From NCBI GenBank assembly GCA_046727435.1, contig JBKPCR010000063.1, positions 1 through 11,835 of the forward strand: DNA of 11,835 nt, written 5' to 3'. Position numbers and translations under genes: made by a program. How positions within the stretch are numbered: the first letter of the stretch is position 1; every line of letters begins with the position of its first letter. Source of the DNA: CAVPRW01 sp046727435 [NCBI: bacterium] (GTDB taxonomy: Bacteria > Tectomicrobia > Entotheonellia > J063). Positions 348 to 10,245 of the stretch are shown piece by piece. The notes beneath the pieces were generated by a model. The model did not search any database, had not been told where the DNA came from, and saw nothing but the letters and a program-made list of their open reading frames with translations.

Positions 348-521
348 TTACTTGATTGCAGGCCTCACCTCATGGATGAGAATTTGTAGGCTGCGCTTTA
401 CCCGCTCCGGGGGAATCTGTTCCCCGGAGTCGAGCTCACACAAATCGAAGGACTCGCGGAAGGATTCCGCCTGGCTGCGGCCTTGACGTGATTCAAACTC
501 CATAAAGATCCCGAAAGGCAT
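348..521 (-). pseudogene. Remnant of a luciferase-like monooxygenase gene: N- and C-terminus joined, core missing
   Basis: A 57-codon minus-strand reading frame runs from ATG 521 to TAA 348. A GAGGAAGG ribosome binding site lies 8 bases upstream of the ATG. Residues 1-30 (MPFGIFMEFES, then AESFRESFDLCEL) look like the first beta strand and helix of a luciferase-like (LLM) flavin monooxygenase, which typically opens MKFGIF and reaches a WxAEHHF motif near residue 40. Residues 34-57 (QIPPERVKRSLQILIHEVRP) look instead like the closing helix of the same family, compare IEHEKLMGSIRLMGEEVIPA in the neighbour at 586. About 280-300 residues of the TIM barrel are therefore missing, and the join is in frame. 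The product cannot form a barrel or bind flavin, so this is most likely a dead remnant; a short expressed peptide cannot be excluded. The joint coincides with a perfect-stem palindrome at 405-429. Confidence 0.6.
405..429. repeat. Palindrome (hairpin) at the deletion joint of the LLM remnant
   Basis: CTCC (405-408) pairs with GGAG (426-429), and GGGGAA (410-415) pairs with TTCCCC (420-425). This leaves a TCTG tetraloop and one bulged G at 409: a 10-base-pair stem. It falls inside the 57-codon remnant reading frame, at codons 31-39, where N-terminal family sequence changes to C-terminal family sequence. No T-run follows on either strand, so it is a poor intrinsic terminator. Confidence 0.6.
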
Positions 522-585
522 CGTTGTCGCCTTCCTCAGTGGGATTGCTCCGATGTGCGCAATACCCCAAGCTTGCTTCTGGCTG

Positions 586-1104
586 TCAAGTGGCCATATC
601 CCTTGGAGCGCGGCCGAGTCGACTGGCCTGCAGTTCCTCGTTGGTGACGACGCTCTCGTCTAAGAGTTGCGCTGGGAGCTCAACACGCGGCTGCACGTAA
701 CGTAGCGCCGGGATTACCTCCTCCCCCATGAGTCGGATCGACCCCATCAATTTCTCGTGCTCGATCCCACCGAACATCATGCAGTTACTGATGTGCGTCA
801 CGCCCACACTGGCAGCGTGTTTGAGCTTGGCGATGACGGTCTCGGGACCGCCGAAGAACAGCCGGTCCATCAGGCCTTTGTCATTGAGCTCGTTGGGGTA
901 GGGGCTAGCGTCGACCCTGCCGTTCGTCACCTCCTGGCGGTTCAGACCACGTTGGGCCCGCGTCTGCCAGCGGACATAGCTCAACGCCTCTGCGGCCTCC
1001 TCATCTGTAGGGGCAACGTGTGTCATGCACTGTAACCCGTGACGTAGATTGGTGAGCGGTTTGTCCAGTCCGGCGTGAGCGTGGACCAGCGCCCCAAACT
1101 GCAT
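586..1104 (-). pseudogene. Truncated luciferase-like (LLM) flavin monooxygenase, C-terminal portion
   Basis: The 172-codon frame from ATG 1104 to TGA 586 carries the C-terminal third of an LLM flavin-dependent oxidoreductase. Residues 26-48 (CMTHVAPTDEEAAEA) correspond to the strand and helix after the barrel insertion. Residues 83-134 (FFGGPETVIAKLKHAASVGV through EHEKLMGSIRLMGEEVIPAL) align with residues 294-342 of the intact neighbour at 1198, including the GxPE phosphate-side motif. Full-length members have about 340-380 residues, so roughly 200 are missing. The AEHHF motif and the ExAxLDxLxxGR region are absent. The ATG has a good GAGGAG site 6 bases upstream and reads MQFGALV, like a native LLM start, suggesting an in-frame internal deletion rather than loss of the 5' end. 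A frame extending to 1191 exists, but that part resembles nothing. It sits 93 bases below the intact gene. Probably inactive. Confidence 0.65.
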
Positions 1105-1197: not shown

Positions 1198-2259
1198 TCA
1201 GAGAGCCGCTGTCGCCGCCGGTTGCCGAGGGCGAATCGCAGCGTTGGCAAAGAGCTCCAGTGAGCGGCACACCTGGTCGTGGGATAGACTGCCGAAGCTG
1301 CACACCAGCAATAGGGTGTCGATCCCGATCGATTCCAGGTGCTCAACTTTCGCCGCGATTTGTTCTGGCGATCCGATCAGCATGGCCCCGAGCGCCTCCA
1401 TCTCGTCGAAGCTCCGCCCGCCCCAACTACGGGTCAGCGATTTGAGGCGCTCGTCGGAAAAATCCGCTGGCGGCGGTGGAGCGGCGAGTGAGGATAGATG
1501 GTAGAAACCCTGCAACCCCAAAGCCCCCTCAGCCCGCGCCTGTTCCGGTGTTTCCGCGACATACGTCTCACGGCACAGCAGCAGACGCGGACGATATGGA
1601 CCTTCCCCCAGTGGCTGGTCACGCGTCGCGAGCGCGGCGTGATAATCCTGGACCGCCCGTGCCACGACCTCCGTCGGCGTGAAATGCATGGCCACCGGCC
1701 AGCCCTTTGCCCCAACGCGCGCCACTGATGCCGGGCGACTAGCTACTTCGTGCAGCGGTGGATAAGGCTGCTGATAAACCCGCGGCCGCAAGCTTAATTC
1801 TGGAAAGCTCCAGAACCGACCGGTATGGGAGCAGGTTTCCTGCGTCCAGACTTTGAGCACGATCTCGACGGCCTCCTCGGTCATCGCCACGCCATCGTCG
1901 AAATTGAGGCCGAGCTTGGCGAACTCACCCTGACGCACGCCCTTGCCTACACCGAAATCGAAGCGTCCTCGCGCCAGATTATCCAGCATGGCCGCTTCAG
2001 CGGCGAGCCGCAGCGGATGATGAAACGACATGGCATTGACGTAGTTGCCAAAGCGCATGTGGCCGGTGCGCTGGACGGCCGAGGCGATCATCAGATTGGG
2101 GCTGGGGAGCAGGGAATAATCAGTGAAGTGATGTTCCGCGAACCAGCACTCACCGAACCCTAGCGTTTCCGCCAGGACGATCTCATCCAGCATCTCATGA
2201 TAGGCTTGATCGTGGGGCACACCTCGCCCCTGGCAGTAGTAGAACAGTCCAAAGTCCAT
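1198..2259 (-). CDS. LLM-class flavin-dependent oxidoreductase (bacterial luciferase-like monooxygenase)
   Basis: This is an intact 353-residue TIM-barrel monooxygenase of the luciferase-like superfamily. The family uses reduced FMN or F420 and O2 to oxygenate or cleave small organic substrates in the cytoplasm. Visible landmarks are the opening beta strand MDFGLFYY (1-8), ECWFAEHHFTDY (37-48), the E88-G107 stretch with LDNLARGRFDFGVGKG, and the C-terminal GSPEQIAAKVEHL helix (296-308). The start at 2259 is chosen because an AGGAGG site lies 6 bases upstream and the protein then begins exactly like the family; a reading frame continuing to 2373 adds only unrelated residues. Length is normal. 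It lies 193 bases below a GntR regulator gene on the same strand and above two deleted paralogues, so it is probably the working copy of the array. The substrate and the choice between FMN and F420 cannot be read from sequence. Confidence 0.93.
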   Translation of the reverse strand: MDFGLFYYCQGRGVPHDQAYHEMLDEIVLAETLGFGECWFAEHHFTDYSLLPSPNLMIASAVQRTGHMRFGNYVNAMSFHHPLRLAAEAAMLDNLARGRFDFGVGKGVRQGEFAKLGLNFDDGVAMTEEAVEIVLKVWTQETCSHTGRFWSFPELSLRPRVYQQPYPPLHEVASRPASVARVGAKGWPVAMHFTPTEVVARAVQDYHAALATRDQPLGEGPYRPRLLLCRETYVAETPEQARAEGALGLQGFYHLSSLAAPPPPADFSDERLKSLTRSWGGRSFDEMEALGAMLIGSPEQIAAKVEHLESIGIDTLLLVCSFGSLSHDQVCRSLELFANAAIRPRQPAATAAL

Positions 2260-2452: not shown

Positions 2453-3148
2453 CTAGGCGATGGAAGGGTGGTTTGCCTGCTGCAGGCTATTGCGCAACGC
2501 CGCGATATGCCGTCGCATGGCCCACTCGGCTCCGGTCGCATCACGACCTGTGAGATACGACAAAATCTCGCGATGCTCCGCTAACGACTCGTCCTTACGG
2601 CCGGGGACGAGAATGACACGAAACTGATGCCGAATGAGCGGCGCCCGCAGCATACTGAGGAACTGGTCGATGAATTCGTTTCCTGCCATCTCGATTATGC
2701 GCTGGTGGAAACGGCCGACCAGCGGTAAATGGCCGAGGAGATCGTCGGCAGCGAGCGTTTTCTCCATCTCCACCACAATGTCGTGGAGCTCAGCAAGCTG
2801 GGCGGCTGTTGCCTTTTCGGCGGCGAGCCCGGCGGCGAGCCCCTCGAGTACCTCACGTACTTGCAGGATACGCGTCGCCTCTGCGACACTGAAGGCACGC
2901 ACTTGAGCGCCGCGGTTCGGCTGAATCTCCACGAAGCCCTCGTGTTGCAGCCGAAGCAGCGCCGCCCGCAGCGTCGCCCGACTGACCCCCAGGATCGGTG
3001 CGATGTCGGTTTCGATCAAACGCTGGCGGGGCGTATAGACCCCCTCCATGATGTCGCGTTTGAGCCGCTGGTAGGTGACTTCTACTCGACTACAGACCGG
3101 ACCCTCAGCCCCACGCTCTGGGGCATGTGTCCTCGCTGGTGACTTCAT
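2453..3148 (-). CDS. GntR-family transcriptional regulator, FadR/FCD subfamily
   Basis: The gene encodes a 231-residue repressor-type protein. Residues 22-86 form the GntR winged helix-turn-helix: a first helix around YQRLKRDIMEG, the recognition helix GVSRATLRAALLRLQHEGFV (54-73) and a wing ending QPNRGAQV. Residues 92-224 are the all-helical FCD effector domain. FCD proteins usually bind a metal through Asp and three His; here H148 (RFHQRI), H192 (AEHREI) and H214 (RRHIAAL) are visible, but the Asp four residues before the first His is Val144. The usual REAL of the recognition helix reads RAAL. Start ATG 3148 has a GGAGGGGAGG site directly upstream. The gene is transcribed toward the LLM array and has a strong promoter and a GntR-type operator at 3274-3286, so it probably regulates itself and the array. 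The effector is unknown, probably a small carboxylate. Confidence 0.93.
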   Translation of the reverse strand: MKSPARTHAPERGAEGPVCSRVEVTYQRLKRDIMEGVYTPRQRLIETDIAPILGVSRATLRAALLRLQHEGFVEIQPNRGAQVRAFSVAEATRILQVREVLEGLAAGLAAEKATAAQLAELHDIVVEMEKTLAADDLLGHLPLVGRFHQRIIEMAGNEFIDQFLSMLRAPLIRHQFRVILVPGRKDESLAEHREILSYLTGRDATGAEWAMRRHIAALRNSLQQANHPSIA

Positions 3149-3578: not shown

Positions 3579-4673
3579 CTACACGTCGTCGCTCTCTAGA
3601 TCCAAGGACCCTCCATTGGAGCCATCTCCCCCCGGCGGCTCAGCGGCCACGCGCGTGAGTCCCAGCGTCTGGCGGAGCTGCTGCTCAATGGCGGCAGCGA
3701 TGTCCGTATGCTCCTTGAGATACTTCTTAGCGTTCTCGCGGCCCTGGCCAATCCGGTCATCCTGGTAGGCGTACCAGGCCCCACTTTTATGCACGAGACC
3801 GCGGTCACTCGCAAGGTCTAGGAGGTCTCCCTCGCGCGAGATGCCTTCGCCATACATCATATCGAACTCCGCCTGCCGGAACGGCGGGGCTACCTTGTTT
3901 TTCACTACCTTCACGCGCACGCGGCTGCCTGTCGTCTCGTCGCCTTCCTTGATTTGGCCGATGCGACGAACATCCAGGCGGACCGAGGCATAAAACTTGA
4001 GAGCATTGCCGCCGGTAGTGGTTTCGGGGTTGCCCACGAACATGCCGATCTTCTGGCGCAGTTGATTGATGAAGATCATGGCGGTCTTGGACTTGCTGAT
4101 GATGCCGGTCAGTTTCCGCAGGGCCTGCGACATGAGGCGCGCCTGCAGGCCCATCTGAGCATCGCCCATCTCGCCATCGATCTCAGCCTTGGGCACGAGC
4201 GCGGCCACCGAATCGACCACGATCACATCGATGGCGCCGCTGCGGACCAGCGTTTCGGCGATCTCCAAGGCCTGCTCGCCGGTGTCGGGTTGCGAAATGA
4301 GGAGCTCATCGGTCTTCACCCCAAGCTTCTGGGCATACACCGGGTCAAGGGCATGTTCGGCATCGATAAAGGCGGCAATGCCGCCCGTGGATTGCACCTC
4401 GGCAATGAGGTGGAGTGCGAGCGTGGTCTTACCCGAGGCCTCGGGACCGTAGATCTCGGTCACGCGCCCACGCGGGATCCCGCCCAAGCCGAGTGCGGCA
4501 TCGAGCGAAATCGCCCCAGTCGAAATGACCGCGATGTCCAAGGCGGCGGGCTGCGCGCCCAGGCGCATAATAGCGCCTTTACCGAATTGCCGCTCGATCT
4601 GGGCCACGGCAAGACTCAGCGCTTTCTCCTTCGGCTCTTTCGAGCCGTTCACTGCGGTCTTCAAAGTTTCCAC
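3579..4673 (-). CDS. recA: Recombinase A
   Basis: The 364-residue RecA carries out ATP-dependent homologous strand exchange and stimulates LexA-type repressor self-cleavage. The whole core is present: N-terminal helix ([20 protein letters not shown], 17-36), Walker A GPEASGKT (76-83), E106 of IDAEHALD, Walker [11 protein letters not shown] (150-159), loop L1 ([12 protein letters not shown], 164-175), loop L2 starting NQLRQKIG (203-210) and containing NPETTTGG, and a C-terminal domain ending in an acidic tail (LDLESDDV). Length is typical. The start is GTG at 4673, seven bases after a GGGAGGA site. One oddity: the L2 tripeptide normally read VMF (KIGVMFGNP in E. coli) is MFV here (211-213), moving the conserved Phe by one residue. 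A promoter with a perfect TTGACA lies upstream; no canonical LexA box was recognised. No recX follows on the same strand. Confidence 0.99.
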
Positions 4674-5051: not shown

Positions 5052-6110
5052 TCACTGGGACGCGGTGCCCAATTGGTCGAGCACCCGCATGAATGGCCCC
5101 CGATCGACCAACTGTGCGAGGTCGGGCTCTTGATCCTTTAGCAACCCTAGCGACTTCATCCTGGTGATCGTATATGTGAGCCGCGCCAGTTCAAGGCCGT
5201 CGTTGACGGGAAAGACCTGATTACGCACTAGCAGCACCTCATAAGTCTTGTCGATCACGCCAGCGTTGAAGCCGGTGGCTTCGGCAGCGATCCTGACCGT
5301 GCCAGCCCGATTCTGGTACATCAAGCGATGGGATTGGGTGAGCGCGGTTAGAAAGCGGCTGGCCAGATCGGGATGTTTGGCTAGCCAATTCTTGCTCACA
5401 AAGTATGTACCGTAGAAATAGTTGGGCTCGACCTCATGCAAATCGACGAGGACATGGAACCGTGTATCGCGCGCCAAAATCTCCATTGCCTGCTCGGTCT
5501 GGAGGATCGCCGAGTGAATCTGGCCGCTGATTAACCCTTGAATATAGCCGGGCGCGGATACCGGAATATAGTGCACGTCCTTTGCACTTAATTGGGCACT
5601 TTCGAGCACCATGCGGGTCATCACCTCGCGAAAGGCGCCCACGTCCTGGATGCCAGCGTTCTTGCCACGGAGCTGCGCGGCAGAAGTAATCGTCTTCGGC
5701 GTTACCATTGAGACGGTGAGGCGGTTGGCATATGTCCCGATGATCGCAAGATTGCCGCCTGCCACCGAGGCGTTGACCACTGGTTCGATACTGGCGCCGC
5801 CGATCGCGACATCATCGGCCACCACGGCCTGCACCACTTTTACCCCTGAATCGAAGTTCTGGATGCTGACGTCGAGAGCTTGCTGCTTGAACAGGCCCAG
5901 TTCCTGGGCAACCACCACATCTATGTTGGCGAAGCTGGTTTTGCCGGTCGGCAGCCCAATTCTAATCTTGGCCGGTGTCAGCGTGGACACAGGCGAGGCA
6001 GCGTCACCCGTCGGGATGAACACCACACGACCAGCACGTGGTGCGCTCCCGCACATCACCGCTAGGATAGTGAGCACGACGCCAACACCAACAGCCCGCA
6101 CCTGTTGCAT
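5052..6110 (-). CDS. ABC transporter substrate-binding protein, NMT1/SsuA-like (nitrate/sulfonate/taurine type)
   Basis: The 352-residue product is an exported solute receptor. Residues 1-26 are a signal peptide: MQQVR, a hydrophobic AVGVGVVLTILAVM core, then SAPRAG. The Cys after AVM does not sit in a proper lipobox, so a soluble periplasmic form is more likely than a lipoprotein. The mature part shows the NMT1/THI5-like pattern: KIRIGLPTG, then VVAQELGLFKQQALDVSI (about 66-83), GVKVVQAVVADDVAIGG (the usual G-x-x-x-x-A-L-x-x-G-x-x-D region), SAAQLRGKNAGIQ and YFVSKNWLAKHPD. Start ATG 6110 is supported by an AGGAGG site that overlaps the permease stop codon; longer frames upstream lie inside the permease gene. 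It is the last gene of the dehydrogenase-ATPase-permease-receptor operon. Relatives bind sulfonates, taurine, nitrate, pyrimidine precursors or aromatic acids; the ligand here cannot be assigned. Confidence 0.93.
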   Translation of the reverse strand: MQQVRAVGVGVVLTILAVMCGSAPRAGRVVFIPTGDAASPVSTLTPAKIRIGLPTGKTSFANIDVVVAQELGLFKQQALDVSIQNFDSGVKVVQAVVADDVAIGGASIEPVVNASVAGGNLAIIGTYANRLTVSMVTPKTITSAAQLRGKNAGIQDVGAFREVMTRMVLESAQLSAKDVHYIPVSAPGYIQGLISGQIHSAILQTEQAMEILARDTRFHVLVDLHEVEPNYFYGTYFVSKNWLAKHPDLASRFLTALTQSHRLMYQNRAGTVRIAAEATGFNAGVIDKTYEVLLVRNQVFPVNDGLELARLTYTITRMKSLGLLKDQEPDLAQLVDRGPFMRVLDQLGTASQ

Positions 6111-6120
6111 GAGATTCCTC

Positions 6121-6954
6121 CTAGGGAGAGGTTTGACGCCAACGCGAGATACGCGCTTCGGCCATTTCCAACGATGCTGTGCTGATAACCCCAAGCGCCA
6201 TAAGCACGACGACCGGCACAAACACGCGCGCCGTCTGAAAGGCATGGGCATTGGAGACAATGAGGTATCCCAGTCCGGAAATGGCGGTGTAGAACTCGGC
6301 GATGATGACCGCGATCAAGGCGCGGCCGATCGCCAGGCGGATGCCGGTCATGATGAACGGCAATGCCGACGCCAGGATCAGATCAGTCCACAGTCGGTAT
6401 TCCGTAGAACAAAACGCATGCGCCACCTCAATCAGGCGTGGGTCGACCTCGCGGACGCCCCGCTGCGTGTTGATGAGCACCGGAAAGACCGTGAACAGCA
6501 GTACGACCACGATTTTCGAGAAAGTACCAAAACCGAACCAGAGCACGAGGATGGGGACCAGCGCCACCATGGGCGTGGCATAAAGAGCCGTGACGGGGAT
6601 ATCCAGCAGCCCTGCGACCACCTGACTCCGACCGGCGAGCAGGCCGAGTCCGACCCCGACCAGTATGCCCAGGGCAAAACCGGTGGAGAGCACACTGAGG
6701 CTCTGGCCCAGGGCGCTCAGGAGCGTGCCATCGGCCAGCATGTCGATGGCGGCGCGAGCAATGGCCGTCGGATAAGTAAAGAGAATCGGGTTCGTGTTGC
6801 GCCCATACCATTCCCAGAGCGCCAATGTGATCGCCAGGGATGTGCCGCGGAGGCCCCACGTCATGCGGCGGTTCAGGTGCGTGCGCATTGGATGGCGGGT
6901 CGTACGCGCAGGTAAGGCAGGGGTTGGCGTGAGGTGACCAGCTGCTGTTTTCAC
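6121..6954 (-). CDS. ABC transporter permease, SsuC/TauC-like (BPD_transp_1)
   Basis: The 277-residue membrane protein has about six hydrophobic segments, for example SLAITLALWEWYG (39-51), VLSTGFALGILVGVGLGLLAG (88-108), MVALVPILVLWF (129-140), IVVVLLFTVFPVLI (148-161), LAIGRALIAVIIAEF (207-221) and VFVPVVVLMALGVI (244-257). Between segments four and five is the cytoplasmic EAA loop (176-199, EVAHAFCSTEYR through ASALP), which docks on the ATPase; its normally conserved Gly is Cys182. The GTG start at 6954 overlaps the ATPase stop by four bases (GTGA) and follows a GGAGG site 7 bases upstream, a classic translationally coupled pair. An ATG at codon 23 is an alternative start. It forms the inner-membrane pore of the importer with the neighbouring ATPase and binding protein. 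Confidence 0.94.
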   Translation of the reverse strand: MKTAAGHLTPTPALPARTTRHPMRTHLNRRMTWGLRGTSLAITLALWEWYGRNTNPILFTYPTAIARAAIDMLADGTLLSALGQSLSVLSTGFALGILVGVGLGLLAGRSQVVAGLLDIPVTALYATPMVALVPILVLWFGFGTFSKIVVVLLFTVFPVLINTQRGVREVDPRLIEVAHAFCSTEYRLWTDLILASALPFIMTGIRLAIGRALIAVIIAEFYTAISGLGYLIVSNAHAFQTARVFVPVVVLMALGVISTASLEMAEARISRWRQTSP

Positions 6955-7766
6955 GTGCCTCCCTCCACCGACAGTGTGGCGTGATCGCTCGCCTGGTGCA
7001 GCACATGGTCATCCTGGAGCGCCTCCCAAAGCTGGCGGCGTAGCTGGGGATAGGTGGGATGGAAGCGGAGATCCTGCGGTGCGCGTGGGCGGGGGATCGG
7101 GACCTCCAGATGCAGGCGCACGTGTCCTGGGGTGCCGCCGAGCACGACGATATGATCGCCGAGCAAAATGGCTTCATCGAGGTCATGCGTCACCAGGATG
7201 GCGCTTGTCCAACGACGCTGCGGGTCCTCCCAGAGGCGGATCAACTCGCCATGAAGCGTCTCCCGCGTGATCGCATCGACAGCGCTGAACGGTTCGTCGA
7301 GCAACAACACCTCAGGGCGCACTGCCAGCGCCCGCGCCAGGCCAACGCGCTGCTGCATCCCGCCAGACAGTTCGTAGGGGTAACGCGCCGCATGTTCGGT
7401 CAGCCCCATGACATCCAGCAGGCGCGTGACGACGCCGCTCTCGTCCCGACGTCCCTGGACCGACAGCCCATAGGCGATGTTTGCCCGTACCGTTTTCCAA
7501 GGAAACAGCCCGAAATGCTGGAAGATCATGGCGATGCGAGGAGTGGGGCGAGTGATGGCGACGCCGTCGAGGAGGATACGACCGCTGCGGAGCGGCAGCA
7601 GACCGGCGACAGCTCGGAGCAACGTGGTCTTGCCACTCCCCGATGTCCCGACGATGCACAGTAGGTCGTGTTCATAGAGGGTTAGTGACACACCCTGCAG
7701 GACGATCCGTTCGCCGAAGGCCAGCGCAACCTGATCAAGGAGGATCTTCGCAGTGCGTGAGCTCAT
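6951..7766 (-). CDS. ABC transporter ATP-binding protein, SsuB/TauB-like
   Basis: This is the energy-coupling subunit of the importer. Counting from a GTG six codons upstream (277 residues), all nucleotide-binding motifs are intact: Walker A GTSGSGKT (46-53), Q-loop FQHFGLFPW with Q89, signature LSGGMQQR (139-146), Walker B VLLLDE (159-164), D-loop SAVD (167-170) and switch His200 in VTHD. The FGLFPW after the Q-loop and the LPLRSGRILLDG segment fit the nitrate/taurine/sulfonate subfamily. The start is given at ATG 7766 (271 residues), which places the family-like ILLDQVALAF near the N-terminus and has a GAGGG 11 bases upstream; GTG 7784 with a weaker site is possible. It lies below the dehydrogenase gene and overlaps the permease by four bases. 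Confidence 0.95.
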   Translation of the reverse strand: MSSRTAKILLDQVALAFGERIVLQGVSLTLYEHDLLCIVGTSGSGKTTLLRAVAGLLPLRSGRILLDGVAITRPTPRIAMIFQHFGLFPWKTVRANIAYGLSVQGRRDESGVVTRLLDVMGLTEHAARYPYELSGGMQQRVGLARALAVRPEVLLLDEPFSAVDAITRETLHGELIRLWEDPQRRWTSAILVTHDLDEAILLGDHIVVLGGTPGHVRLHLEVPIPRPRAPQDLRFHPTYPQLRRQLWEALQDDHVLHQASDHATLSVEGGT

Positions 7767-7857
7767 GCGTCGGGCATCCCTCACCTGACCCTGTACGACA
7801 CGCCCTCATTATACGTGATGCCATTGGAGCTGCGCGCCTAGCTGAGCCTTGGGTGCG

Positions 7858-9010: not shown

Positions 9011-9250
9011 TCATAAGGCCTTATACAGGGGCACGAGTTGGTCAGCAAGACTCTTGTCATACATCTACGCATAGACGTTCTCGGCTGAGGCGGCGCCATT
9101 GTAGCTACCGGCCGGCGGCATGTCAATTTCAGCGTCGCACACCAGCGAGTTATTGGCGAGGAGTGGGGCTTGACCTGCGGGCAACGCCCATGGTAGAAAT
9201 GACTCCTGTGGATACTCGGAACCCGCCCATGTGGGCGTCTGCTGGAGGTT
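9011..9250 (-). pseudogene. Possible remnant of an unidentified protein gene upstream of the dehydrogenase
   Basis: A minus-strand frame reads through AGSEYPQESFLPWALPAG, APLLANNSLVCDAEIDMPP and AGSYNGAASAENVYA, meets an in-frame TAG at 9065-9067, and continues in the same frame with MYDKSLADQLVPLYKAL to a TGA at 9011-9013. Composition and the clean continuation past the TAG look like the tail of a real protein broken by one nonsense change. No ribosome binding site or N-terminal domain was found and the family was not recognised. It overlaps the upstream part of the longest GNAT frame on the other strand, so at most one of them is coding there. Chance is a real alternative. Confidence 0.28.
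9020..9048 (-). promoter_or_regulatory. Candidate promoter of the dehydrogenase-transporter operon, with a palindrome over the -10 box
   Basis: On the minus strand TATAAG (9020-9025, 5 of 6 matches to TATAAT) lies 17 bases after TTGCTG (9043-9048, 3 of 6 matches). Transcription would begin near 9013, about 55 bases before the ATG. A perfect 12-base palindrome, ATAAGGCCTTAT, covers 9013-9024 and overlaps the -10 box, so it could be an operator. The -35 box is weak, so the promoter may need an activator. Confidence 0.35.
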
Positions 9251-9303
9251 TGCCTGGGGCCAGGGTTCATGGCAGGGCTCCTTCAAACACCGGATGGAGA
9301 ACT

Positions 9304-10245
9304 GTGACACCGCTCGGCGACGTTCAAGTAGTGGACCTCTGCACTGTCACCGCCCCCGAGCTGGATGACCTCTGGCAGTATGAAGTGCGCCTGTGGCATG
9401 ACCGGCTTCTCTGGGACGTTTCGGGTGCCTTTGCCGCACTGCGCCGTATTGTGGGGCGCGGTGGCTTGCCAGGCAAGGCTGTGCGGGTACACGATCGGAC
9501 GGTCGGCTACACGTATTATGGGATAGATGGGCATCTCGGGGTGGTTGCCGGTCTGGTCGTCTTGCCAGATTGGAGTCGCAGTGATGTCGGGGAAACGCTC
9601 CTCAAGAACACCATTCATGAGATGCAACGGCAGGGGGTGTCACGCATCGAAAGCCGTTTCATATCTGCCGATTGTCCTTGGCTTGGGGCGGCGCTTGAGG
9701 CCGAAGGGTTCCAGAGCTATTGGCGCGAGTTCCTCCGCTGCGAACTGCGTCCATCGCGATGGCCTGGGCGCATTCTAGCGTTGGTGTCCTTGGAGCCATG
9801 GCAAGAAACCCACCTCGGCGAAGCCGCGGCGATTCTGCAGGCGGCCTATGCCGGCGGTATTGAAGCCGAGATTCTCGCTCTCTATCGCAGCATGGATGGC
9901 TGCCGTACCGTACTCGATAATATCGTAAACCAGGGCAGTTGCGGTGTTCTCGTTCCCGAAGCTTCAGCGATAGCTCAGAACCGAGGGCGAAGCCTCGGCT
10001 TCGTTGTGGTCACGGAAGTGGCCCCCCGACAGGGACATTTGCCCCAGGTAGCCGTGCTGCCTGAATACCAACGTCAAGGCATTGGTCGAGGGCTCCTGGA
10101 CTACAGCTTGCGGCAACTGGCCGAAGGCGGATTCGAGACTCTTTCCCTGATCGTCAGCCGTGCGAACGACCGAGCTCTCACGCTCTATCAGGCTATGGGC
10201 TTTCAATCCGTGCTAGCCTTCCCCGTAGGCATCTGGGAGAGGTAA
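9304..10245 (+). CDS. GNAT-family N-acetyltransferase with two tandem GNAT domains
   Basis: The protein (313 residues from the chosen GTG) carries two acetyltransferase folds. The C-terminal domain (about 155-311) has a good acetyl-CoA motif A, QVAVLPEYQRQGIGRGLL (248-265), with the pyrophosphate loop QRQGIGRG, and the motif B region ANDRALTLYQAMGF (287-300), so it should be the active one. The N-terminal domain (about 8-148) keeps the shape (VAGLVVLPDWSRSDVGETLL, 81-100, and CPWLGAALEAEGF) but its loop lacks the second Gly of the RxxGxG/A pattern and is probably degenerate. The start is uncertain: GTG 9304 has only a GGAG four bases upstream but begins where family similarity begins; the frame is open back to GTG 9163. 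It diverges from the dehydrogenase operon. The acceptor substrate is unknown. Confidence 0.85.
   Translation: MTPLGDVQVVDLCTVTAPELDDLWQYEVRLWHDRLLWDVSGAFAALRRIVGRGGLPGKAVRVHDRTVGYTYYGIDGHLGVVAGLVVLPDWSRSDVGETLLKNTIHEMQRQGVSRIESRFISADCPWLGAALEAEGFQSYWREFLRCELRPSRWPGRILALVSLEPWQETHLGEAAAILQAAYAGGIEAEILALYRSMDGCRTVLDNIVNQGSCGVLVPEASAIAQNRGRSLGFVVVTEVAPRQGHLPQVAVLPEYQRQGIGRGLLDYSLRQLAEGGFETLSLIVSRANDRALTLYQAMGFQSVLAFPVGIWER

Follow-up and report, generated by a model that had tools for sequence, protein, structure and literature searches.

At one end of an 11,835-nucleotide stretch of bacterial DNA (the window, always meaning the whole of that stretch) lies a reading frame of 57 codons that begins like a luciferase-like monooxygenase (LLM) and also ends like one. 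LLMs are flavin- or F420-dependent TIM-barrel enzymes, and the locus raises the question of whether such a frame is the remains of an enzyme gene, a small protein that has been kept, a fault of the record or a chance likeness. The evidence given below points to the first of these.

The mini-gene and its signals

The frame, hereafter the mini-gene, is read on the minus strand, with ATG at 521 and TAA at 348–350 (57 codons and the stop); on the plus strand of 348–521 the translated frame contains two stops. A first-pass annotation, made from the letters of the DNA, had reported a 57-codon frame with its own ribosome binding site and left the strand unstated; frame and site are both present, on the minus strand. 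About 8 nt 5' of the ATG stands GAGGAAGG, for which a duplex of −7.9 kcal/mol with the anti-Shine-Dalgarno (anti-SD) tail of 16S rRNA is predicted, compared with −10.3 kcal/mol for the intact LLM gene of the window and −11.6 kcal/mol for recA (Table 1).

Scored against eight genes of the window, the mini-gene showed a codon usage of 0.199 bits per codon. This falls within the 5–95% range (0.11–0.52) of 41 in-frame 57-codon slices of intact genes, slices that have an advantage because the score was trained on the very genes they come from, while the five other frames of the mini-gene gave −0.623 to 0.059. For 205 wrong-frame slices the median was −0.36 and the 95th percentile, 0.223, lay above the value of the mini-gene. 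On this modest evidence, codon usage in the mini-gene is still coding-like. Structure prediction without an alignment gave the peptide three helices and no barrel, with low confidence (mean pLDDT 67.2, pTM 0.33).

Table 1. Features of the window around the mini-gene, with positions counted from its first letter.
Feature	Position	Strand	Basis
Core-deleted LLM remnant (mini-gene), LLM columns 1–30 joined in frame to 320–346	348..521	-	profile match
N-terminal end, residues 1–29 (MPFGIF...FDLCE); join at about residues 27–30	435..521	-	profile match
C-terminal end, residues 30–57 (LDSGEQIPPERVKRSLQILIHEVRPAIK) and stop	348..434	-	profile match
Shine-Dalgarno-like GAGGAAGGC of the mini-gene	529..537	-	duplex −7.9 kcal/mol
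Imperfect hairpin CTCCGGGGAA-CAGA-TTCCCCCGGAG, about 10 pairs, 4-base loop	405..429	-	DNA folding of 381–441
Truncated second LLM frame of 172 codons, ATG start preceded by an SD	586..1104	-	profile; PF00296 below gathering score
Intact LLM of 353 codons (MDFGLF start), SD present	1198..2259	-	PF00296 188.8 bits; profile
GntR/FCD regulator, upstream of the LLM cluster	2453–3148	-	family search
recA, beyond the GntR/FCD regulator	3579–4673	-	family search
NMT1-type ABC importer: substrate-binding protein, permease, ATPase	5052–7784	-	family search

Match of the two ends to LLM proteins

The comparison was based on an LLM profile of 351 columns built from 15 real proteins (12 from public plasmids, two from genomes and one from the window). 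Twenty-six LLM proteins had been extracted, and 11 of them (L112–L115 and L117–L123) were excluded ahead of any scoring of the mini-gene, on visual inspection of the printed ends, on the grounds that the start was set wrongly or that the protein belonged to a separate branch. To set the first residue of each row, the protein was aligned to the window's own LLM and whichever M or V lay closest to the start so indicated was taken; two of the rows were trimmed to 365 residues. For a wider, 26-protein profile the same 15 were combined with 11 further LLM proteins from other loci.

Against the 351-column profile, residues 1–29 of the mini-gene aligned to columns 1–30, of which column 1 is partly fitted since the row starts were chosen through the alignment to the window's LLM, and residues 30–57 aligned to columns 320–346. 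The two-part match totals 12.9 bits (P 2.5e-6), and the wider profile gave 15.2 bits (P 5e-7). When the halves were searched separately, as the first-pass annotation had asked, residues 1–30 (P 9.6e-5) and residues 29–57 (P 4.7e-5) both matched the profile, at opposite ends, each with less than 9 bits. In 20,000 shuffles with composition and initial M preserved, the highest score was 6.6 bits, short of the 12.9 observed, and the two end-anchored matches never occurred together. The window contains 331 stop-to-stop segments of 20 residues or more. Ranked by score, the segment with the mini-gene comes third (9.7 bits): the intact LLM reaches 423.6 bits, the second LLM frame 59.6 and the fourth-ranked segment 3.1. 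The profile and the shuffles thus bear out the proposal that an LLM N-terminus is joined here to an LLM C-terminus, and the absence of some 280–300 internal residues proposed with it agrees with the 289 missing columns (31–319 of 351).

Searches of Pfam and NCBIfam with the mini-gene or with either half returned no family at E up to 10, since neither surviving end is long enough for curated profiles to pick up; for the same 57-residue frame the gathering score of PF00296 was accordingly not reached. A phmmer search of the PDB with the mini-gene found no LLM, its sole match being a centrin at E = 1. By the measure of a complete TIM barrel (about 320–350 residues) the mini-gene falls outside PF00296, columns 31–319 being absent, while by descent alone it belongs with the LLMs, its N- and C-terminal ends aligning to LLM ends beyond chance. 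It shares with the superfamily the MxFG start, the first helix, the last loop and the C-terminal helix, but unlike the superfamily it is without about 289 of 351 columns, most of the barrel. No protein close to both ends was found among the LLMs compared. The two ends could derive from two different LLM genes, which counts against a single deletion.

A cluster of three LLM frames

On the minus strand three LLM frames follow one another: in reading direction an intact one, a truncated one and, last, the gutted mini-gene. Relatives of the intact LLM (1198–2259) in the PDB include 7bip (2.7e-32). The second frame carries a tip, MQFGALVHAHAG, and then from residue 19 matches LLM columns 222–347 of 353 (67 bits), so that about 205 columns are absent and roughly the C-terminal third is kept without the first two thirds. 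The frame also extends 36 residues past the end of its LLM match. Although the list of open reading frames gives it as 586–1191, the start is likely to be the ATG at 1104, since a good SD is found there (CAGAGGAGA, −9.1 kcal/mol) and none at the ATG at 1191 (−1.9 kcal/mol). The tip alone matches LLM columns 1–15 weakly (P 0.03). The second frame is likely to be core-deleted as well, rather than truncated at the N-terminus with a chance start.

The ABC importer at 5052–7784 shares its strand with the GntR regulator and the LLM frames, and may supply the LLM with substrate. Farther along, a plus-strand frame at 9163–10245 gave GNAT matches (PF13480 weakly at residues 51–163, PF00583 at 268–347) and perhaps encodes a two-domain acetyltransferase.

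Searches for relatives

Relatives of the mini-gene were sought in several collections. In genome contigs 241 stretches fitted its pattern and in viral contigs 18 did, with none confirmed in either, and no match was found in plasmids (tblastn, E up to 10). At E limits of 1, 0.1 and 0.01 respectively, matches occurred in 14 of 48 genomes (best E 0.016), in nine of 198 from one phylum (best E 0.003) and in two of 396 from another (best E 0.008); none of these counts exceeds chance, since the E-values apply to one genome. The genome searches covered a few phyla, those of the RecA loci retrieved, among which the host's own phylum is perhaps not represented. DNA motif scans of viral contigs returned one and five stretches respectively, and in the one and in four of the five no LLM-like frames lay near the motif. 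The window's intact LLM fitted 11 stretches in viral contigs, none of them confirmed, and was not found in three genomes.

RecA was used to reach related loci. Its C-terminal part matched at least 595 stretches of genome contigs with at least 243 relatives, the best identity among the matches listed being 69%. With full RecA (3579–4673) the best-scoring match, within the best 80 of at least 243 relatives, is 72.6% identical, and the host organism is therefore distant from these 80 loci. At E 1e-3, none of these best 80 of at least 243 RecA loci held a match to any of the window's three LLM frames. No undeleted counterpart or intact ortholog at the same place was found among the relatives reached, none of which is close. 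Judged by title, no paper in the literature searched has core-deleted LLM genes as its subject.

Origin of the mini-gene

The mini-gene is quite probably a pseudogene, from which one internal deletion took the LLM core and left the frame open by chance. The event would have been a single illegitimate deletion of about 870 bases, assuming a parent as long as the profile, and it would have happened to leave the reading frame open, a one-in-three chance for which no selection is required. Any single deletion within a gene leaves both ends, and a third of such deletions keep the frame by chance. For a pseudogene it counts that 57 residues stand against 351 columns, far fewer than in the homologs, and that the core is lost; against it counts that start codon, SD and open frame are kept in both truncated frames. 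Two independent deletions would keep both frames in about one case in nine, and selection is not called for, since one in nine is not rare enough and open frames are the ones that are noticed.

It had been argued in the first-pass annotation that loss of the core with both ends and the frame intact is unusual for random decay; this view found no support, in the light of the one-in-three chance, the bias in noticing and the truncated neighbour. The same annotation had left a choice between a recent single deletion and a retained small protein. An in-frame loss of the core that spared the start, the ribosome binding site and both ends is supported; for a retained protein no evidence was found in the contigs, plasmids and genomes searched.

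The position of the mini-gene's codon usage inside the range of in-frame slices suggests little decay since the deletion, and the truncated neighbouring frame fits decay of the cluster, which is best read as a set of eroding LLM paralogs, young pseudogenes with codon usage still coding-like. The cluster would then be shedding redundant paralogs. Because the ribosome binding site is still undecayed, translation of the peptide may go on. In the established fold of LLMs the retained ends cover the first strand, the first helix in part and the last helix, and the cofactor-binding parts of that fold are absent; with these and nearly all of the barrel gone, the peptide cannot act as an LLM. For the mini-gene we infer a single event, a recent age and a lack of function, the single deletion by inference only since the undeleted counterpart was not found.

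The hairpin at 405–429 lies downstream of the join, within a few bases of it, and folds better as DNA than most shuffles (z-score −2.81; two of 200 shuffles fold equally well). It possibly marks an endpoint of the deletion. A role as a terminator or leader element was rejected, given the lack of a T run, the absence of terminator-like sites in 1–2600 and an RNA z-score for 348–560 of only −2.05; tRNA, Rfam (gathering) and promoter/terminator scans likewise returned nothing. A repeat at 437–450 and 1950–1963 (12 of 14 bases alike) was considered as deletion homology. One copy is near the join, but the other falls within the intact LLM gene, midway along it rather than at a C-terminal end, and the repeat therefore does not account for the whole deletion.

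Other explanations

The alternative that survives best is an artefact of assembly or amplification, in which one or two full-length LLMs stand at this place in the real genome and were shortened in the record by collapse or chimeric joining. In its favour, the contig may derive from a metagenome or a single cell, a fairly strong hairpin adjoins the join of the mini-gene, and both neighbouring LLM frames are truncated, as expected of a region that is hard to assemble. The frame is, however, preserved across both joins. Assemblers usually collapse long near-identical repeats, whereas those in 1–2600 of the window are short and imperfect (the longest is 24 nt at 71%), which disfavours a simple repeat collapse. 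An artefact is accordingly considered unlikely.

It is very unlikely that selection has kept a small protein from the LLM remnant, for example a peptide that binds a paralog. The intact SD, start and frame, the coding-like codon usage and the seemingly similar architecture of the neighbouring LLM frame would all suit such a protein, but neutral young pseudogenes would look alike, the predicted fold of the peptide is of low confidence, and no homolog was confirmed in the contigs, plasmids, viral contigs and genomes searched. Remoter still is the idea that both LLM neighbours were gutted in frame, independently or jointly, and their products kept and translated, for instance to pair with the intact LLM. 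A chance resemblance, with the frame not derived from an LLM at all, is hardly credible: the lack of a match to curated profiles and the low scores of the single halves would allow it, but the shuffles, the rank among the segments, the anchoring at the right ends of the profile and the two adjoining LLM frames stand against it.

Meaning of the finding

As a pseudogene, the mini-gene can be set beside decayed genes described elsewhere. In tests of Pseudofinder on Shewanella and Sodalis, genes much shorter than their homologs were reported to be relatively common, and 238 and 305 remnants respectively were found where no frame had been called (PMC9336565). Like the truncation pseudogenes treated there, the mini-gene is far shorter than its homologs and lies beside a truncated paralog; it differs from them in that its frame and translation signals are open and only its length is telling. 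In young pseudogenes of endosymbionts, according to a second paper, ribosome binding sites can outlive function and few of the genes yield detectable protein (PMC13345370). The mini-gene likewise keeps its ribosome binding site, although those pseudogenes belong to other organisms and the mini-gene is known from sequence alone. The expansions of flavin monooxygenases in SAR202 are reported to involve several flavin-enzyme paralogs per genome, as here, and serve as an analogy only (PMC5395668, PMC6946804).

If the mini-gene were conserved in relatives, it would be a small protein born by the gutting of an enzyme gene. As it stands, it serves mostly as a warning that a good ribosome binding site before a short open frame is compatible with a young pseudogene.
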